A stretch of DNA of 64,000 nt, taken from Olivibacter sp. SDN3. Lineage in GTDB: Bacteria > Bacteroidota > Bacteroidia > Sphingobacteriales > Sphingobacteriaceae. Shown one piece after another: positions 3,053 to 11,608 of this stretch (position 1 is its first letter; each line of letters starts with the position of its first letter). Where the stretch lies: NCBI RefSeq assembly GCF_014334135.1, contig NZ_CP060497.1:3472001-3536000 (forward strand), read 5' to 3'. Made by a program: the position numbers and the translations under genes. The notes beneath the pieces are model-generated. The model saw only the letters and a list, made by a program, of their open reading frames with translations, had not been told where the DNA came from and did no database searches.

Positions 3053-4114
3053 ATGAGCCTACTTCAGCAAAGAGTTAAAGTTCTACTTCCTGCTTACTTT
3101 GCGATGGTAATGGCTACGGGCATTGTTTCTATAGCCTGCTTATTGGTTGGGTTTACATGGACGGCTGCTGTGCTTTTCTACCTTAATATCATTTTCCTTA
3201 TCGGCTTATCTACGCTTTTTTTTTACCGGATTATTTGTTATCGGTCTGAAGTAGTGAATGATTTTAAAAGTTACCAGAAAGGCCCGGGTTTCTTCACGAT
3301 TGTCGCGGCGCTTTGCATTGTGGGAAATCAAGTTATGCTATTCTATCAATGGTTAGTATTTGCCACGGCAATTTTGATTCTGGCAGCTATTCTATGGGTT
3401 ATCATTATTTATGGTTTTTTTTTCAATATCACAACAACTGATGATAAAAAGCCTTTGAAAGAAGGTATTAACGGGACTTGGTTGGTGATAATTGTCTCTA
3501 TCCAGGCATTATCGATTTTGATTAATTTTGTTTCTGAGGTTTTCGGAGAGCAGACACATATCTTTTTATTCATTGCTTTGTGTCTTTTCCTTTTGGGGTG
3601 CTTTTTTTACCTCTATATTATCTCGCTCATCATTTATCGTATTTCCTTTTTTTCGTTAAATGCGACCGAACTCGGAGCTCCCTATTGGATTAATATGGGC
3701 GCAACAGCTATTTCTACCTTGGCAGGTTCTATGCTGATACTACGTGCTCAAGCATTTAATTTTCTAGATGAAATTCTGCCTTTTCTAAAAGGGTTTACGC
3801 TTTTCTTTTGGGCGTCGGGCTCTTGGTGGATACCTCTCCTTGTTTTGCTGGGTATCTGGCGTCATGTGATAAAAAAAGTGCCAGTACCCACTTCGGCCAA
3901 AGGGTATGACCCAAGCTATTGGGCTATGGTGTTTCCGCTTGGCATGTACACGGTTTGCACTTTCAGATTAAGTGAAGCGCTGCATATTCCTTTTCTGAAA
4001 ACAATTCCCGATTATTTTGTTTATATCGGAATTTTCGCTTGGCTTGCGGTGATGATCGGATTCATAAAGCAAATGATTTTCGTTTTTGGTGGCAAAACAG
4101 AAATTGCAAACTGA
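3053..4114 (+). CDS. TDT/SLAC1-type anion channel or transporter
   Basis: An integral membrane protein of 353 residues with about ten hydrophobic helices, in the tellurite-resistance/dicarboxylate transporter (TDT; TehA, Mae1, Ssu1, SLAC1) superfamily. The N-terminal PAYFAMVMATGIVSIAC is typical of the first helix of this family, and a late helix carries SYWAMVFPLGMYTVCT. Family members conduct small anions such as nitrate, sulfite, malate or chloride. It lies 116 bp upstream of the molybdoenzyme genes on the same strand, so uptake or export of nitrate or nitrite is an attractive inference. The family is sound; the substrate is not shown by the sequence. Confidence 0.8.
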   Translation: MSLLQQRVKVLLPAYFAMVMATGIVSIACLLVGFTWTAAVLFYLNIIFLIGLSTLFFYRIICYRSEVVNDFKSYQKGPGFFTIVAALCIVGNQVMLFYQWLVFATAILILAAILWVIIIYGFFFNITTTDDKKPLKEGINGTWLVIIVSIQALSILINFVSEVFGEQTHIFLFIALCLFLLGCFFYLYIISLIIYRISFFSLNATELGAPYWINMGATAISTLAGSMLILRAQAFNFLDEILPFLKGFTLFFWASGSWWIPLLVLLGIWRHVIKKVPVPTSAKGYDPSYWAMVFPLGMYTVCTFRLSEALHIPFLKTIPDYFVYIGIFAWLAVMIGFIKQMIFVFGGKTEIAN

Positions 4115-4230
4115 AAATTTGTTGTAATTAACCATAAACGTAAATTGAATATTAATTCAAACAATTATTGTAAAGTATTGTTGGAGTATTTTGAACGATA
4201 CCAGTTTTACAATTTAGCGCCTACCTGATT

Positions 4231-5286
4231 ATGTACAGATTCTTCAACACTTTGAATCGGTTAGCCTTAATCAAAGCGAGTATATTGACCGTTTTGGTGG
4301 TAATATTGGTGCTGATCGGATCTCGGAATCTACAGCATTTTGACCCCGCCTTAATTGCTTATCTAACAGGAACTGTATTCGCCGTTTTCGGAACGGCCTA
4401 CCGCTATTCGGTTTGGATACAGCGGCCGCCAACCAAACTCTACTGGCGTAGAAGCATGCGGTTTCTCTTTAGTGCACATTTTTTTCCCTACCTTTTTCGC
4501 TCTTTACGGCTATTTGTGCGCAATATATTATTTCAACGATTTATTGCTTACCGAAGTAGAACACGTTGGGCAGGGCATTTCATGTTGGCCAGCGGCTGTT
4601 TGTTGGCCTTTGCAATCACCATACCCCTCACTTTCGGATGGATTCATTTCGAATTAAAACCCGGAGATGACCGTACCTATTATGCTATGTTATTTGGATT
4701 TGAAGCAGGTTCTTTCAGTTTGGGATCTCCTTTAGCCTTTATGGCATTTCATTGTTTAGTGTGGTGTTCTGTTTTAGTAACAGTAGGAGCAGTGATCATG
4801 ATGAAAAGAAGGTTTACAAATGGTGGATTAATTGCAACGCAGACCTTTGAAGATGATCTGCTGCCGCTTATTTTGTTAATTGCTATTTCTGTAACCGGTT
4901 TGGGAATTTCTTATGACTATACCTTTTTGGAAGGTAAAACGTACCAGTTTATGGCCGTTACACACGCTATCACGGTTATTTTGTTTTTACTGTGGTTACC
5001 TTTTGGCAAATTTTTTCATATATATCAACGATTTGCCCAATTAGGTGCTAATCTGTATAAGATAGAAGGTACAAGGAGAGGCATGGCGCTCTGTCCACAC
5101 ACAAAAAAGGAATTTGCCTCGCAAACACATGTTAACGATCTTAAAAAAGTAACCAACGAACTTGGTTTTGATTTTAATAAAAAAGATGGCTCCAGTCATT
5201 TGGATTTAAGCCCGGAAGGGAAACGGTCTGCATTAGCAAAAGCACACTTTCAAGCGAGGAAAGAATCTGGACAATTCTTTGGTTAA
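4231..5286 (+). CDS. NarI-like membrane subunit (putative quinol-oxidising cytochrome b)
   Basis: A six-helix membrane protein of 351 residues that begins the tight part of the molybdoenzyme operon (15 bp before the catalytic subunit). Helices lie at about 11-30, 38-62, 112-138, 165-190, 208-228 and 240-263. Candidate haem ligands are His83, His116 and His174, and a His245/His263 pair. The 18-residue spacing of the last pair equals the published distal haem-ligand spacing of NarI. The cytosolic tail (about 275-351) is hydrophilic and carries an isolated Cys288. Such proteins are often annotated vaguely as transporters. I infer electron transfer from quinol to the iron-sulfur subunits; haem binding is not proven. 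Confidence 0.65.
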   Translation: MYRFFNTLNRLALIKASILTVLVVILVLIGSRNLQHFDPALIAYLTGTVFAVFGTAYRYSVWIQRPPTKLYWRRSMRFLFSAHFFPYLFRSLRLFVRNILFQRFIAYRSRTRWAGHFMLASGCLLAFAITIPLTFGWIHFELKPGDDRTYYAMLFGFEAGSFSLGSPLAFMAFHCLVWCSVLVTVGAVIMMKRRFTNGGLIATQTFEDDLLPLILLIAISVTGLGISYDYTFLEGKTYQFMAVTHAITVILFLLWLPFGKFFHIYQRFAQLGANLYKIEGTRRGMALCPHTKKEFASQTHVNDLKKVTNELGFDFNKKDGSSHLDLSPEGKRSALAKAHFQARKESGQFFG

Positions 5287-5301
5287 AAAAGAAAAAGCGA
5301 A

Positions 5302-7521
5302 ATGGCAAAACTTCCAATAGCTGCTGATCAAATCATTGAAAAATATGGCCCCCATAAGGCTTATGCGCCGCAAGCAGGTTTCTACGGAGCTCATGAACCA
5401 GATAAGTTAGTCAAAACCCATTGTTGTTATTGCGGTATGCAATGTGGGATTCAGCTGAAGGTAAAGGACAATAAAGTTGCAGGTTTTGAACCTTGGATGG
5501 AATTCCCTTTTAATGAAGGTCGACTTTGTCCGAAGGGCGTGGAACGTTATCTGCAAAACAATCATCCTGATCGGCTTTTGAATTCTCTACAGCGTGTAGA
5601 AGGTAAAGGCTTTGAGGCGGTTTCTTGGGAACGGGCAATGGATAAAACCATTAACGAGATTAATAGAATTCAGCGCGAATACGGTAGAGACGCTTTTGCG
5701 ATGTTAAGTGGCGTATCACTTACCAATGAGAAGAGTTATATGATCGGGAAATTTGCTCGCGTAGCATTAAAAACAGCCAATCTTGATTATAATGGAAGGT
5801 TGTGCATGGTGAGTGCAGGAGGAGGTAATAAAAAAGCTTTCGGGCTGGATAGATCCTCCAATAGTTGGGCCGATCTCGCGTACGCCGAAATTATTATTGT
5901 TGCAGGAGCTAATATAAGTGAAACATTCCCTACACTGACACACTATATCTGGCGAGCAAGAGATAACGGCGCTAAATTAATCGTGGTAGACCCACGTGTC
6001 ATTCCTTTGGCGCGCACAGCCGATCTGCATTTACCCATTCGGCCTGGAGGGGATTCGGCGCTTTTCGGAGCAATGCTGAAAATCCTTGTTGACAATGATT
6101 GGTTAGATCACGATTTTATTGAAAACCATACTTCAGGCTTTCAGGAAACAATCGATGCGGTAAAAGATTACGATCTCGATTGGGCCGAGGAACATACGGG
6201 AATATCGAAAGACAAAATATTAGAAGCGGCTACCTTGTGGGGAAAAGCTAAAACAAGTTTTCTGCTACACGCGAGAGGTGTTGAGCATCATACCAAAGGT
6301 GTAGACAATGTATTAAGCTGTATCAATTTAGTGCTTGCAACTGGGCGCATAGGAAAACCGTATTGCGGATACGGTACCATCACCGGCCAGGGTAACGGCC
6401 AAGGTGGCAGAGAGCACGGCCATAAATGCGACCAGTTGCCCGGGAATCGCGATATTACCAATCCAGAGCATCGTAAATATATAGCGGAGGTCTGGGGGAT
6501 CGAAGAAAAAGAGATGCCAGGAAAGGGCTTAACAGCCTATGAGCAGATTGAGGCCATTCATAGAGGGGAGATAAAAGGCATGATTTCCATTTGCTTTAAT
6601 CCGCTGGTATCACTACCTAACAATAACTTTGTTCGCCAGGCGCTTGAAAAACTGGAATTTTATATATGTATAGATTCGTTTCTCAGCGAAACGGCGCGCC
6701 ATGCTGATATTATTATGGCCGGGTCTTTACATGAGGAGGAAGAAGGGACTGTGACAACCGCAGAAGGACGGGTAGTGAAGATAAATGCGGCAGTTTCTCC
6801 TCCCGAGAATGCACGAAGAGATGGTGAGATTTTAATGGAGATAGCCAGCAGACTTGGAGCTGGAGATAAATTTAATTTTGCCAATAGTGAAGCGATTTTC
6901 AATGAGCTGAGACTTGCCTCAAAGGGAGGGACTGCCGACTACTACGGCATTACCTATCAAAAAATAGTAGACAACATGGGGGTATTTTGGCCTTGCCCGT
7001 CACTGGATCACCCTGGAACACCACGACTTTGGGAAGATAGAAAATTTAAAACACCTGACGGGAAAGCTCACTTTAACCCGGTTACTTATAGACCGGCAGC
7101 TGAAGTTACTGATAGCGCATATCCAGTGGTATTAACAACCGGTAGGGTGGTTTCGCAATACCTTAGCGGAACATCCACTAGGAGGATAGGCAAGCTTGTA
7201 GACCAATATCCCGAACCATTGCTGGAGATACATCCAAAACTGGCTTTCCAATACGGTATTAAAAATCGGGATTTGATTAAAGTTAAAACAAGGAGGGGGG
7301 AGGCGGAGTTTCCGGCACAGGTGGTAGAAACGATTCGGGAGGATACGGTTTTCATTCCTTATCATTGGGGTGGAAAACATGCTGCCAATCAATTAACCAT
7401 TGGAAGTCTGGATCCAATATCCAAGATTCCAGAATTTAAAGTATGTGCTTGTCAGCTGATCCCTACAGGGAAGATGGTTTCGGAAGATGCTACTGAGGCT
7501 GCCTATCAAAGCCAATTGTAA
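5302..7521 (+). CDS. Molybdopterin oxidoreductase, Nas-like nitrate reductase catalytic subunit
   Basis: The catalytic subunit of a DMSO-reductase-superfamily enzyme (739 aa), resembling assimilatory nitrate reductases. A [4Fe-4S] site is formed by Cys41, Cys44 and Cys48 with Cys76 in RLCPKG; the Lys after it suits electron transfer to the pterin. The likely Mo ligand is Cys168 in [12 protein letters not shown], as in Nas/Nap enzymes. [12 protein letters not shown] near 360 and the C-terminal molydopterin-dinucleotide-binding domain (about 600-720, with [14 protein letters not shown]) complete the family pattern. No Tat signal is present, so it should be cytoplasmic. Nitrate is the most likely substrate by family and by the MoeA/MobA neighbours, but no nitrite reductase gene is in view. 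Confidence 0.82.
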
Positions 7522-7583
7522 AAGAAAAGAGAAACATTAGTGAATAATAAAGGAATTTATGGTAATATTTAAAATGAAATGCT

Positions 7584-8153
7584 ATGCCAGAAACTAATTA
7601 CAACCAGGAAATGGCCTTTTTTGTAGATATGCAACGCTGTATTGGGTGCCACGCCTGCGAAATGGCCTGTGCAGAGTGCGAGACAAATGGTCAGGAAAGT
7701 ATGATACATGTCAACTACGTTGAGCGGGCTGTGAGTGTACAAACCACTGTACAGGTATGCATGCATTGTGAAAACCCTGCGTGTGCCAACGTATGTCCAG
7801 CAGATGCCATTCATCAAGATGATTTTGGTGTGGTGCATACAGCCAATACTTCTAGGTGTATAGGTTGTTCTAATTGTGTATTAGCCTGCCCTTTTGGAGT
7901 ACCTAAAAAAATGGAAGAGGCTGAGTTGATGATGAAGTGTAATATGTGTTATGACAGAACTAGCGCAGGTAAAAAGCCAATGTGTGCGACGGTTTGCCCC
8001 AGCCAGGCCTTATATTACGGTACTAAAGAGGAAATTGAGCGGATGCGACCAAATAGTGTTCCTGTAAATTCCTTCGTTTTTGGCAATCAAGAGGTCAATA
8101 CGAAAGTAAATATTATGATGCCTAAAGGCACCCATCAATTAATCGTGGATTAA
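7584..8153 (+). CDS. Four-cluster [4Fe-4S] ferredoxin subunit (NrfC/DmsB type)
   Basis: The electron-transfer subunit of the molybdoenzyme complex, 189 aa. Four cysteine groups are visible: [35 protein letters not shown] and CNMC...CATVC, which together can hold four [4Fe-4S] clusters. There is no signal peptide, in agreement with a cytoplasmic catalytic subunit. The gene lies 62 bp after the catalytic subunit and 10 bp before the Rieske gene, so all are probably translated from one message. It is expected to pass electrons from the membrane or Rieske subunit to the molybdenum protein. Confidence 0.9.
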
Positions 8154-8163
8154 CTTATTGATC

Positions 8164-8691
8164 ATGTCCGCTAGGGAAGCTAACGATAATTTGGAAAAAA
8201 TACCGAACTGGAAAAGTGATTTTCCTATTGAATCAGATAATGCAACGCATGTAGGCCGGAGGGAGTTCGCTAAATTTTTGGCGCTATTCTCTGGTGCTTT
8301 GGCACTCACCAATGGTGTAATTGTTGTCAGATCGCTTTTGTTTCCGACTAAACCCTTGGTTGGCGAGCACTTTGTATGTAATGAAACGGAGGTGCCTATC
8401 GGGAAAATGTTCCAGTTCGAAATTAAAGGGAGCAAAGTTATTCCCTATATTCTCATTCATCTAGCGGAAAACGAATGGCGCGCCTTTGAGCAAAAGTGTA
8501 CTCATTTGACTTGTGCAGTAAGGTATAGGGAGGATTTACAAAAGATTGAATGTCCATGCCATCATGGCTTCTTTAGCGCTGATACCGGAGAGGTGCTACA
8601 AGGACCACCACCACGACGTCTCCCGCAGCTTGAAGTGGTAGCAAAGGAAGGGAAAATATATGTTAAACAACGTGAACAAGTAAATGGTTGA
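8164..8691 (+). CDS. Membrane-anchored Rieske [2Fe-2S] protein
   Basis: A Rieske protein of 175 aa. The cluster ligands are in CTHLTC and CPCHHGFF; both extra cysteines of the high-potential, disulfide-stabilised type are present. The N-terminus has GRREFAKFLALFSG followed by a hydrophobic helix, a Tat-like signal anchor, so the cluster domain probably sits on the outer face of the membrane. That is opposite to the apparently cytoplasmic ferredoxin and catalytic subunits, which is notable. An in-frame TTG lies at 8158, but ATG 8164 is the more natural start. The next gene starts 3 bp after this stop. Confidence 0.87.
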   Translation: MSAREANDNLEKIPNWKSDFPIESDNATHVGRREFAKFLALFSGALALTNGVIVVRSLLFPTKPLVGEHFVCNETEVPIGKMFQFEIKGSKVIPYILIHLAENEWRAFEQKCTHLTCAVRYREDLQKIECPCHHGFFSADTGEVLQGPPPRRLPQLEVVAKEGKIYVKQREQVNG

Positions 8692-8694
8692 GAA

Positions 8695-8994
8695 ATGAGT
8701 AATTTTAGAGAATCCCAAAACCAAGCACATCCTAATAAAACCAATACGTTGATGGTAGGGATCATACTGCTGCTCGTGCTATTTGTGAGTATACAAATCT
8801 GGTTTTTATTTGGCGCCCTGAACAATGCCCTGCAGGATAATTTCTATTTTGCCTTAACCACCTTTATTGGTTCACTGATACTATCCCTTGCTTCATTTTG
8901 GCTTTTACGCTATTTACCAGACCCTTTAAAAACACGTGAGAAAAGAAAAAAGACGCCAAAGAAAGAAGTTTCAGATGTGAGTGGTGAAACATAA
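8695..8994 (+). CDS. Small two-helix membrane protein of the molybdoenzyme operon
   Basis: A 99-residue protein with two hydrophobic helices (about 19-42 and 52-74) and a basic tail rich in Lys and Arg (REKRKKTPKK). I recognise no catalytic motif. It sits 3 bp after the Rieske gene and 35 bp before moeA, which points to a structural or assembly role in the same membrane complex. It may belong to one of the small DUF families that accompany Rieske genes in Bacteroidota, but I cannot assign it from sequence alone. Confidence 0.75.
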   Translation: MSNFRESQNQAHPNKTNTLMVGIILLLVLFVSIQIWFLFGALNNALQDNFYFALTTFIGSLILSLASFWLLRYLPDPLKTREKRKKTPKKEVSDVSGET

Positions 8995-9029
8995 GAAAAA
9001 TTATTATTTTAGAGATCAATAACCCCCAT

Positions 9030-10211
9030 ATGCGAATGATCTCAGTAAATGAAGCAAGGAAAATACTTTCAGCAAACGTGGAAAGAGCGGAAGCGGTTAC
9101 GATTAATTTGCAGGATAGCCTTGGCGCGGTACTTGCCGAAAATGTATACGCGCCTGTTGACGTGCCTTTTTTCAACAATTCGGCCATGGATGGTTACGCT
9201 GTGGATTTTGTTGAGCATATTAAAAATTGGGAGGTAGTTAAGACCATCCAGGCGGGAGACAGCACAGAAACGATTCTAAAACAGGGACAGGCAGCACGCA
9301 TATTTACTGGAGCTAAAATACCTAATGGCGCCAATACCGTTATTCCACAGGAAATGATTACTGTAGAAAATCAATCGATTAGCTACGACTTGGATAAAAT
9401 AAAAAAAGGTGACCACGTGCGATTGAAAGGTTCGCAATGTCAACAGGGTGATCTTCTCCTCGCGAAGGGGATAAAGTTAAATGCTCCAATGATCGGTTTG
9501 TTAGCTTCGGTGGGGCTGGCAGAAGTAAGCATTTATAAGATTCCTTCCGTAACATACATCGTTACGGGGAATGAATTGAAAGAAGCGGGAACGAAATTGG
9601 AAGCGGGCGAGATTTACAATTCAAATGGTCCTATGTTAAAGGCATTGCTGAGCGAAGTTGGTATACATAATACTTCCGCCCTAATTGCTGCCGATGATCA
9701 ACACAAACTTCAGCAAGTTATAAATAAAGCCCTAAGCGAAGTTGACATTCTTATTTTAAGTGGAGGGATTTCGGTGGGCGACTATGATTTTGTTAAAGTA
9801 TGTATGGAAAATGCAGGTGTTCAGGAGTTATTCTATAAAGTAAAACAGCGTCCGGGCAAGCCTATTTTTGTAGGGAAAAAAGAAAGAAAATGGATTTTTG
9901 CGCTTCCAGGAAACCCTTCATCGGTCTTGAGCTGCTTTAAACAATATGTCAAGCCCTGCCTTGAGTATTTAATGGGAGCTGATGATGTTTGGGCACAGGA
10001 TAAAATATTACCACTGGCAACGGATTTTCGAAAGGTTATGGGACTTACATTTTTCGTAAAGGCATATGAAAATGGCAGTAACGTGGAAATTCTCGACGGC
10101 CAGCAATCCTTTAATCTACAAGCATTCGGCAAAGCGAACTGTTTCATTGAATTGGATGAGAACAAGGAAGTAATCCCCTCTGGAACCGAGGTGAAAATTT
10201 TTAACTTATGA
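9030..10211 (+). CDS. moeA: Molybdopterin molybdenumtransferase MoeA
   Basis: MoeA inserts molybdate into adenylylated molybdopterin, the last common step of cofactor synthesis. The protein has the family length (393 aa) and its hallmark motifs: NSAMDGYAVD near residue 50, GGISVGDYDFVK in the MoCF-binding domain, and PGNPSSVLSCF near 290. It follows the molybdoenzyme subunits and is 10 bp upstream of mobA, so cofactor supply appears co-expressed with the apo-enzyme. The start is probably ATG 9030 (MRMISVNEAR); ATG 9036 is also possible. Confidence 0.94.
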   Translation: MRMISVNEARKILSANVERAEAVTINLQDSLGAVLAENVYAPVDVPFFNNSAMDGYAVDFVEHIKNWEVVKTIQAGDSTETILKQGQAARIFTGAKIPNGANTVIPQEMITVENQSISYDLDKIKKGDHVRLKGSQCQQGDLLLAKGIKLNAPMIGLLASVGLAEVSIYKIPSVTYIVTGNELKEAGTKLEAGEIYNSNGPMLKALLSEVGIHNTSALIAADDQHKLQQVINKALSEVDILILSGGISVGDYDFVKVCMENAGVQELFYKVKQRPGKPIFVGKKERKWIFALPGNPSSVLSCFKQYVKPCLEYLMGADDVWAQDKILPLATDFRKVMGLTFFVKAYENGSNVEILDGQQSFNLQAFGKANCFIELDENKEVIPSGTEVKIFNL

Positions 10212-10221
10212 ACCCATTTCG

Positions 10222-10815
10222 ATGATAGGAGATCAAACCGTAGAGGCTTTTGTATTAGCCGGAGGGAAAAGCACGAGGATGGGAGTGGATAAAGGCTTGG
10301 TTGTTCTTAAAGGTAAACCGATGATATCCTATATTCTCGAGACCCTGCAAAGAGCAAGATTAAATGTTAGTATTGTGGCAAATAACGATGCCTATAAAGA
10401 CTTCGGCCTTCCGGTATATGCTGATGTTGTATTAGAAAAGGGGCCAATGGGAGGATTATTAACAGCAATGCGAAATGCTGCTTCAGAAGTGATTTTACTG
10501 ATAAGTTGCGACATGCCACTTATTTCTCCTGAAGCGATAAACAGTTTACTGTCGTTTCTTGATAAAGAGAAAATTGTTGCCACTGCAATTGAAAATAAAG
10601 TTAACCCCCTGTTTGCCCTTTATCCCCGTAAACTGAAAAGCAACGTTGAAGCATACGTGATTTCCGGTCGATTAAAAATGACGGATTTTATTTTAGACAA
10701 TCCACATCTGTTGTTACTTTCCTTCGCGCAGGAAATGTCATGGTGCTTTAAGAATGTGAATACGCCGATCGATCTCGAAGAAATAATGAATTCCCGGCCT
10801 CTTGAAAACGATTAG
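10222..10815 (+). CDS. mobA: Molybdenum cofactor guanylyltransferase MobA
   Basis: MobA transfers GMP to Mo-molybdopterin to make the dinucleotide cofactor used by DMSO-reductase-family enzymes. The nucleotide-binding signature LAGGKSTRMGVDKG lies near the N-terminus, and the metal-binding ISCDMPLI is near residue 95. At 197 aa the protein has family length. It is the last gene of the operon, 10 bp after moeA. Its presence fits a bis-MGD cofactor in the catalytic subunit at 5302-7521. Confidence 0.92.
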   Translation: MIGDQTVEAFVLAGGKSTRMGVDKGLVVLKGKPMISYILETLQRARLNVSIVANNDAYKDFGLPVYADVVLEKGPMGGLLTAMRNAASEVILLISCDMPLISPEAINSLLSFLDKEKIVATAIENKVNPLFALYPRKLKSNVEAYVISGRLKMTDFILDNPHLLLLSFAQEMSWCFKNVNTPIDLEEIMNSRPLEND

Positions 10816-11026: not shown

Positions 11027-11608
11027 TTAGCCATGTATGGATTCAGTTTTGCCATATTGCTGAATGAGCTCTCCTTCGAAAGTAAGCCATTCTTTCCAAC
11101 GTTTTTCGACATCGACATCGACGCTGTATTTCCGGGCAAAATTTAGAAAAGTAGTGTAGTGGTTGGCCTCAGATACCATTAAATCATGATAAAAACTGGC
11201 CAATTCTTCATCTTTAATATTTTGTGACAATACACGAAAGCGCTCACAGCTACGAGCCTCTATCATAGCTGCAAATAGCAGTCGGTCAATGAAAGCAGTA
11301 TTACGGCTTCCATCTTTCTTGGCAAATTTCATTAGTTGGTTGACATAGTCATCCTTGCGTTCGCGACCCAATTTATATCCTCTTTTTTTTATGAGATCGA
11401 TTACCATTTGAAAATGTTGCATTTCTTCAATCGCTATCGCAGTCAGTTCATGTGTCAACTCTTCATATTCCGAGTTATTGGTAATGAGTGATATCGCATT
11501 CGACGCTGCTTTTTGTTCACACCAGGCATGGTCTGTTAATATCTCTTCAATGTTTGATTCGGCAATGTTTGCCCATCGCGGGTCTGTTAGTAATTTTAAT
11601 CCAAGCAT
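11027..11608 (-). CDS. miaE: tRNA-(ms2io6A) hydroxylase, MiaE-like
   Basis: A ferritin-like di-iron protein of 193 aa. MiaE hydroxylates the isopentenyl group of ms2i6A37 in tRNA. The metal-binding helices are visible: Glu in the first helix (SNIEEILTDHAWCE), EEMQHF near residue 81, EARSCERF near 120 and SEANHYTTF near 150. Length and motif order match the family. It stands alone. A TAnnTTTG-type box lies 23 bp upstream of the start on its strand. The substrate is assigned by family only. Confidence 0.85.
   Translation of the reverse strand: MLGLKLLTDPRWANIAESNIEEILTDHAWCEQKAASNAISLITNNSEYEELTHELTAIAIEEMQHFQMVIDLIKKRGYKLGRERKDDYVNQLMKFAKKDGSRNTAFIDRLLFAAMIEARSCERFRVLSQNIKDEELASFYHDLMVSEANHYTTFLNFARKYSVDVDVEKRWKEWLTFEGELIQQYGKTESIHG

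Follow-up and report, generated by a model that had tools for sequence, protein, structure and literature searches.

The 64,000-nucleotide stretch of DNA analysed here (the window; Olivibacter sp. SDN3, assembly GCF_014334135.1, contig NZ_CP060497.1, positions 3,472,001-3,536,000) lies in a 6.1 Mb genome assembled as a single contig and holds a cluster of molybdoenzyme genes, five of which form a conserved core that probably encodes a membrane-bound menaquinol:nitrate oxidoreductase facing the cytoplasm, with a catalytic subunit from the NasC branch. The original prediction, made from the sequence letters and a list of open reading frames, had described an eight-gene operon for a quinol-linked nitrate (or related) reductase; all eight frames were found on the + strand between window positions 3053 and 10815, and their families were as claimed (Table 1). 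Our argument starts from what can be read directly: the gene set and its order, the conserved ligands, a Nap/Nas-type active site, a resemblance to NarI and the company that the unit keeps in genomes.

A conserved five-gene core

A scan of contigs with the catalytic protein returned 184 relatives, of which we kept the best 80, all from Bacteroidota by name. The original prediction had proposed a search for the gene order across this phylum, and the order recurs: in 79 of the 80 loci, the NarI-like, NasC-like, ferredoxin, Rieske and two-helix proteins are encoded in this order on one strand, and the remaining locus (L062) begins at a contig edge that cuts the core. This arrangement is far beyond chance. 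Identities to the window's proteins, in core order, are 53-84, 76-89, 74-93, 52-74 and 42-79 percent. The eight-gene extent did not hold up: the TDT/SLAC1-type gene upstream and the MoeA and MobA genes downstream are present in the window as described, but across loci they are optional neighbours (MoeA 42/80, MobA 47/80, TDT 6/80). In one Flavobacteriaceae contig (L044, 6847-7900) the NarI-like gene is split between two frames, by a frameshift or a sequencing error.

As a search handle, DUF6755 (the family that the two-helix protein resembles) found just 4 of 247 genomes, so an alignment of the NarI-like proteins was used in its place. It detected the gene in 9 of 392 genomes, an even draw from the phylum with the window organism's own genome included, and in none of 11 listed relatives from that organism's own family. 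Four plasmid records had a NarI-like match, all from Deinococcus, and the three that we opened hold the same five genes, followed by a gene annotated as a nitrate/nitrite or MFS transporter. The Deinococcus annotation names the cytochrome 'MFS transporter', the catalytic subunit 'molybdopterin oxidoreductase family protein' and the last gene 'DUF6755 family protein'. An additional small gene there encodes 65-70 residues and runs into the beginning of the NarI-like gene (L089:8736-8933, L090:8721-8933, L091:8736-8933); the one that was tested had no Pfam match. Taken together, the Deinococcus plasmids, the patchy spread in the phylum draw and the position of the unit in the catalytic tree (below) suggest horizontal transfer.

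A Nas-like catalytic subunit

The best NCBIfam model for the catalytic subunit is NasC (841.6 bits, equivalog cut-off 1100), followed by formate dehydrogenase (589.5 bits, cut-off 666), with the NapA models far below their cut-offs; in a narG search of its own genome the protein scored 26.6 bits against a cut-off of 1084. Cys168 is invariant in 81/81 sequences and aligns with the molybdenum-ligating cysteine of NapA and NasC. It is followed by Met169, and a threonine stands at the place of FdhH Arg333; in the alignment, E. coli NapA and Paenibacillus NasC have the same residues. We considered formate dehydrogenase, since enzymes of that kind are the top sequence matches among solved chains, yet the active-site residues rule this identity out: FdhH His141 and Arg333 are replaced by Met169 and the threonine. 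Judged from these aligned positions, the active site is Nap/Nas-type and not that of a formate dehydrogenase.

The unit's 18 enzymes occupy one side of a branch with a support of 100/100 in a 31-protein tree (loci L005, L007 and L011 are outside this tree). Their neighbours are five Nas proteins from Paenibacillus, Actinomycetota and Deinococcus gobiensis, three annotated beside nirB and two in unannotated records. The unit's enzymes stand apart from the fused Nas proteins of Hymenobacter and Spirosoma, with the deeper places unsure and the branches long. The window's protein sits beside those of Saprospiraceae, Cyclobacterium and Galbibacter/Salinimicrobium, with Flavobacterium elsewhere. No RRxF motif was found in the first 45 residues of the catalytic subunit (0/81), and among the five core proteins only the Rieske protein bears a motif for twin-arginine translocation (Tat). 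The best model, the tree, the active-site residues and the missing RRxF thus all agree with the original description of this subunit as Nas-like and lacking a Tat signal.

The predicted electron-transfer subunits

The membrane subunit matches Nitrate_red_gam at 17 bits (Pfam cut-off 22.9). When its structural model was compared with solved chains, EtfD came first (Z 10.3, root-mean-square deviation (rmsd) 4.0, 197 residues aligned), NarI chains gave Z 8.8-9.9 (rmsd 4.6-6.3, 158-189 aligned), the b6f cytochrome b gave 7.8 and unrelated rows reached at most 7.4, all of them below the value of about 13 under which Z may mean little for a helical bundle. Foldseek with the first model had returned many receptor chains; the later comparison ranked EtfD and NarI highest. 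These results are suggestive of a membrane subunit that resembles NarI in fold.

Four histidines of this protein are kept: H116 in 80/80, H174 in 77/80 (lysine replaces it in the other three) and H245 and H263 in 79/80 each. NarI binds its hemes through two pairs of histidines, each pair on a helix of its own, the second with a spacing of 18. That second pair, corresponding to the 18-residue spacing of His245 and His263 that the original prediction had singled out, is kept in our cytochrome; the first pair is not, and the outer heme would therefore have a shifted ligand. The loop at 64-109 was assigned to the inside by its charge (mean K+R 8.1, D+E 1.3), and the loop charges place H116 and H263 near the inner face, H174 and H245 near the outer face and the C-terminal tail in the cytoplasm. 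The hemes would thus probably be held by H174/H245 on the outer side and by H116/H263 on the inner. In two Deinococcus proteins (L089:8926-10038 and L090:8926-10038), the tail ends in a CxxC...CxxC pattern that resembles a zinc ribbon. The tail is also conserved in Bacteroidota, but its cysteines are mostly lost (by eye, one is kept), and we dropped the idea of a metal site there.

The ferredoxin has 17 invariant cysteines (81/81), enough for the four [4Fe-4S] clusters originally assigned to it. The Rieske protein had been described as held on the outer face by a Tat-like anchor: R34, R35 and F37 of the motif are present in 81/81, and in the model (pLDDT, the predicted local distance difference test, 84) a helix at 34-61 precedes the Rieske domain, which on the basis of the motif and the anchor helix should face outward. 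The cluster ligands (C114xH116/C132xxH135) and the disulfide pair C119/C134, numbered from 8158, are likewise invariant in 81/81, so that the CxH...CxxH ligands, second cysteine pair and Tat-type anchor of quinol-type Rieske proteins are all present. The sequence matches are headed by b6f and bc1 Rieske proteins, with AioB also among both sequence and fold matches; in the fold comparison the Chlorobaculum Rieske domain ranks first (Z 15.3), although dioxygenase ferredoxins tie with it (14.9) and the fold alone is not discriminating. Gly137 and Phe139, again in 81/81, occupy the places of a serine and a tyrosine that raise the redox potential in bc1 Rieske proteins; a lower potential would suit menaquinone. 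The extra two-helix protein is present as described and DUF6755-like: it falls just below the gathering threshold of 27 bits, and two Deinococcus proteins from the same place score 42.9 and 44.3.

Transporters and nitrogen genes near the unit

Neighbours of the core were clustered from non-overlapping frames within <=8 kb, one representative per cluster being family-tested; the frames were chosen greedily, and the counts are therefore lower bounds. NarK-like genes occur in at least 70 of the 80 loci (two representatives match NarK/NarU models below the cut-offs). A TDT gene lies directly upstream of the core in 5 of the 10 loci that have no NarK in the fetched stretch versus 1 of the 70 that do (Fisher p 5.9e-5, kinship uncorrected). 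Four of those ten are on cut contigs (L011, L045, L062 and L076), and L011 is among the five with TDT. The most distant TDT, at 41 percent, is that of L057, a locus that stands apart in the catalytic tree. There was no NarK match in the window, L087 or L088, which together cover 101 kb (the remaining genome was not searched). The simplest reading of this pattern is that TDT would replace NarK as a nitrate/nitrite channel; a PDB sequence search with the TDT protein gave no match up to E 1.

Two further neighbours were counted: a siroheme (SUMT) gene near the unit in at least 29/80 loci, and NirK a few kb away in the fetched flank of at least 5/80 (L016, L022, L023, L037 and L039). The one NirK that was read, that of L022, has a CxxCH-bearing tail, and the NirK is accompanied by genes that look by eye like SCO1 and SUMF1.

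Nitrogen metabolism in the window organism and other carriers

A PF00384 search of the window organism's genome found three places: the unit's catalytic gene; an FdhF/YdeP-type protein (858.7 bits); and, at 1.76 Mb (L003:799-3756), a fusion of molybdopterin-like and ferredoxin parts with a Tat-variant start, whose halves match QrcB and QrcC and which looks like ActB of an alternative complex III. The unit's enzyme is the only one of Nas/Nap/Nar type found in this genome. NirB, NirD, an FNT channel, SUMT and a Crp/Fnr-type regulator are clustered at 5.65 Mb (L087:6922-12880), a set that resembles E. coli nirBDC-cysG and looks like an oxygen-regulated nitrite-to-ammonium set; the N-terminus of the regulator (L087 6922-7617) is Cys-rich by eye. 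Nitrite in this organism is probably passed to NirBD and reduced to ammonium. This gene content, like the NasC-clade catalytic subunit and the SUMT genes near the unit in at least 29/80 loci, would also fit an assimilatory nitrate reductase that draws its electrons from quinol rather than from NADH or ferredoxin and supplies nitrogen through NirBD. We consider this alternative unlikely, for reasons that come from the other carriers.

We examined 40 carrier genomes, the window organism's own and 39 of the 80. Above cut-off, NapA was found in none, NarG in 2 (G404 and G406), NirK in 24, NirB in 28 and NrfA in 17, of which 15 are full-length (the partial matches, G394 with an internal stop and G410, were left out). 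NirK or full-length NrfA is present in 29/40, and 38/40 have neither NapA nor NarG. In the phylum sample without carriers, NirK occurs in 36/243 genomes versus the 24/40 here, with kinship not controlled; four carriers were taken from that 247-genome sample (G000, G021, G170 and G202), three of them with NirK. For an enzyme that served assimilation, these dissimilatory nitrite reductases, including the NirK genes in the flanks of five loci, would be unexpected company.

A second point against assimilation is a separate fused Nas-type frame of 1162-1199 residues, present in 27 of the 28 NirB genomes and hence in 27/40 carriers; the lone NirB genome without it is the window's own. We infer this frame from matches to the NapA model and to the reductase part of NirB and from frame length, and some of the matches cross a stop. 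In 21 of the 27 genomes it lies on the nirB contig (for example, G429:C1:262095-265589). Plasmids of Hymenobacter and Spirosoma encode a similar fused Nas under the annotation 'nitrate reductase', with NarK-type transporters and cobA as neighbours and, in Hymenobacter, nirD too.

The third point is that NirB is missing from 12/40 carriers, 9 of which have NirK or full-length NrfA. Three of the 12 lack any NIR_SIR domain (G393, G404 and G409); the other nine have it in frames of 570-759 residues, a size usual for sulfite reductase, and may contain a ferredoxin-type nitrite reductase. Two examples illustrate the range: in Flavobacterium denitrificans (L030, G415) the unit occurs together with NirK, NirB and the fused frame, with no NapA or NarG over cut-off, and Salinimicrobium sediminilitoris (L024, G409) has NirK and NrfA, with neither NirB nor a NIR_SIR domain. 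With the fused frame in 27/40 and these NirK and NrfA counts, the unit is, by gene content, a second nitrate reductase beside a Nas-type enzyme in most carriers, or the sole one found beside a dissimilatory nitrite reductase. This company points to nitrate respiration, and the unit would most likely feed denitrification or ammonification, not simply assimilation. Many Flavobacterium species are known to reduce nitrate to nitrite, according to the accessible text of PMC9697520.

Proposed mechanism and alternatives

From here on we argue from genes to function: complex formation, substrate, topology, heme pairing, proton balance, channel cargo and the role of the Rieske protein are all inferred. 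In the mechanism that we favor, the NarI-like subunit would take electrons from menaquinol close to the outer face, and these would move inward through the b hemes (probably H174/H245, then H116/H263) and the four ferredoxin [4Fe-4S] clusters to the [4Fe-4S] cluster and molybdenum-bis(molybdopterin guanine dinucleotide) of the NasC-like subunit, where nitrate would be reduced in the cytoplasm. With protons released outside and consumed inside, the enzyme would run a redox loop of the NarGHI kind. Nitrate would enter and nitrite leave through NarK or, at the window locus, through the TDT channel; the Rieske protein would sit outside beside the quinol site, most likely taking or giving single electrons; and the DUF6755-like protein would belong to the membrane part. 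The distinct gene set, Nap/Nas-like active site, NarI-like fold, outward Rieske domain and nitrate-respiration company all favor the quinol-linked nitrate reductase of the original prediction, which we regard as likely; of its second iron-sulfur entry point on the outer face, the outward placement of the Rieske domain is supported, and the protein itself may be an entry for electrons, an exit or a branch of quinol oxidation.

Several observations weigh against this reading. The catalytic subunit does not reach the NasC equivalog cut-off. The likeness of the cytochrome to NarI is marginal in sequence (below the Pfam cut-off, hhalign probability 52), the structural model is weak (pLDDT 69, predicted template modelling score (pTM) 0.46), its Z scores are in a range that may mean little for helical bundles and its Foldseek E-values are all >0.001. 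An FNR-type box was found upstream of the unit in 0/79 loci (1.3 expected by shuffle), nor was there one above the window's TDT gene or in two scanned stretches of the nirB locus. In the window organism, NirK, NrfA, NarG and NapA are all below cut-off, and the enzyme there could therefore serve assimilation through NirBD; respiration and assimilation are indistinguishable from the gene content of that genome. The 40 carriers are interrelated and hand-picked, and three (G392, G404 and G413) lack NirB, NirK and full-length NrfA.

The orientation could also be reversed, with the NasC-like subunit and ferredoxin leaving the cytoplasm via the Tat signal on the Rieske protein, in the way that the Tat signal on AioB serves to export the large arsenite oxidase subunit; nitrate would then be reduced in the periplasm, and the Rieske protein would link quinol to the ferredoxin. 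That the Rieske protein alone in the core has a Tat motif, and that TatC was found in the window organism's genome, would suit such export, as would the outward Rieske protein NarB encoded in the haloarchaeal pNar operon (accessible text of PMC2483277 and PMC7754194). A periplasmic site would, however, leave the NarK-like genes of 70/80 loci without a purpose, the charges of the cytochrome's loops predict a cytoplasmic NarI-like tail, and there is no NarJ/TorD-type chaperone gene among the eight, all of which makes export, in our estimate, quite improbable.

Another substrate or the reverse reaction (nitrite oxidation, or selenate or chlorate reduction) seems very improbable. Sequence cannot fix the substrate with certainty, and enzymes of the molybdopterin superfamily can be promiscuous, but the Nap/Nas-type active-site residues speak for nitrate, as do the NarK-like genes, NirK and NirB that accompany the unit.

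An elaboration of the menaquinol:nitrate oxidoreductase would give the Rieske protein a larger part: menaquinol could be split as in bc1, one electron going through the b hemes and iron-sulfur clusters to nitrate inside and the other through the Rieske protein to a periplasmic cytochrome c and then to NirK or an oxidase. We hold such bifurcation to be rather doubtful; if true, the complex would be a hybrid of NarI-type and bc-type quinol oxidases serving two denitrification steps at once. In place of bc1, the carrier organisms are expected to use alternative complex III.

Comparison with known systems

As originally claimed, the gene set is distinct from those of NarGHI, NapABC and classical Nas. 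Known here from its genes, the unit would be like NarGHI in a molybdenum enzyme predicted to face the cytoplasm, a four-cluster ferredoxin, a putative NarI-fold quinol oxidase and a nearby NarK. It differs in that the catalytic subunit is of the NasC clade with a cysteine ligand, whereas the molybdenum ligand of NarG is an aspartate; all four ferredoxin sites have four cysteines; no NarJ is among the eight genes; Rieske and DUF6755-like subunits are added; and the cytochrome, compared with NarI, has one more helix at its N-terminus and a C-terminal tail that is conserved. Unlike NapABC, it has no Tat-type (RRxF) catalytic subunit, and no c-type cytochrome family is represented among the eight genes. 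With NasC/NasA it shares the catalytic group and active-site residues, but in place of NasB or a single-ferredoxin donor it has a ferredoxin, a cytochrome and a Rieske protein directed toward the quinol pool, and it stands beside a separate fused Nas-type frame in most carriers. The Rieske protein resembles those of bc1 and b6f in its cluster and disulfide motifs and its Chlorobaculum match; in contrast to bc1, the eight genes encode neither a bc1-type cytochrome b nor a c1, and the protein has Gly137/Phe139. AioAB likewise pairs a molybdenum enzyme with a Rieske partner, but has, to our knowledge, no NarI-like or four-cluster subunit, and AioA lacks an amino-acid ligand to molybdenum (accessible text of PMC7331816), unlike the unit with its invariant Cys168.

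The haloarchaeal pNar operon (narB, narC, narGH) is the nearest precedent that we found for a nitrate reductase with a Rieske protein, and it also includes a cytochrome b (PMC2483277, PMC7754194, accessible text). However, pNarG faces outward and NarC is not a NarI homologue (PMC7754194), whereas our catalytic subunit is Tat-less and our cytochrome NarI-like; NarB, according to the accessible parts of both papers, did not stay with NarGH on purification.

In the accessible text of PMC7331816, canonical four-cluster or anchor subunits are said not to accompany members of the Nas/AioA/NapA clade, and NasA/NasC to function solely in assimilation (the same function is given in PMC10100899, as far as its text is accessible). 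Going by its gene content, the five-gene unit is an exception to the first statement as worded there. A comparable case is ForCE, in which an FdsA-related formate dehydrogenase is tied to menaquinone by another partner (PMC8808070, accessible part). The accessible part of PMC12769810 names a Rieske protein only as a criterion for selecting sequences. We found no earlier description of the unit in the open PubMed Central literature; the subscription literature is mostly outside this search, so one is possible elsewhere. The novelty, as judged from the genes, is that known modules are newly combined, tying a Nas-branch enzyme to the quinol pool.

The catalytic part comes from a nitrogen-uptake branch, and the unit may therefore be an overlooked enzyme of nitrate respiration, its genes hidden under the labels 'MFS transporter' and 'molybdopterin oxidoreductase family protein'. 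If it is the carriers' nitrate reductase, surveys that use only narG and napA undercount nitrate respiration in Bacteroidota and Deinococcus. For DUF6755 the unit further provides a context, and for a bacterial SLAC1-type channel a role that can be put to the test, which would be a physiological one if TDT/SLAC1 is a nitrate/nitrite gate.

The window locus

Table 1. The eight genes of the cluster, in window coordinates.
Product	Coordinates	Strand	Basis and remarks
TDT/SLAC1-type channel, 353 amino acids	3053..4114	+	PF03595, 151 bits (gathering 27.9), E 5.9e-44
NarI-like cytochrome b subunit (putative), 351 amino acids	4231..5286	+	Six predicted membrane helices, conserved C-terminal tail; fold comparison, kept histidines
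Catalytic molybdenum subunit, NasC clade, 739 amino acids	5302..7521	+	Molybdopterin oxidoreductase family; no Tat motif; Cys168 as molybdenum ligand
DmsB/FdhB-type ferredoxin, four [4Fe-4S] motifs	7584..8153	+	Fer4-type families
Rieske protein, Tat motif and N-terminal anchor helix	8164..8691	+	Rieske family; frame opens at TTG 8158, ATG at 8164
Two-helix DUF6755-like membrane protein, 99 amino acids	8695..8994	+	PF20540, 26 bits; relative in 80/80 loci
MoeA, molybdenum insertion	9030..10211	+	Family match; near core in 42/80 loci
MobA-like NTP transferase, molybdenum cofactor guanylylation	10222..10815	+	Family match; near core in 47/80 loci

Directly past the MobA-like gene, on the opposite strand, lies a gene for a MiaE-like tRNA hydroxylase (window 11027-11608, -).

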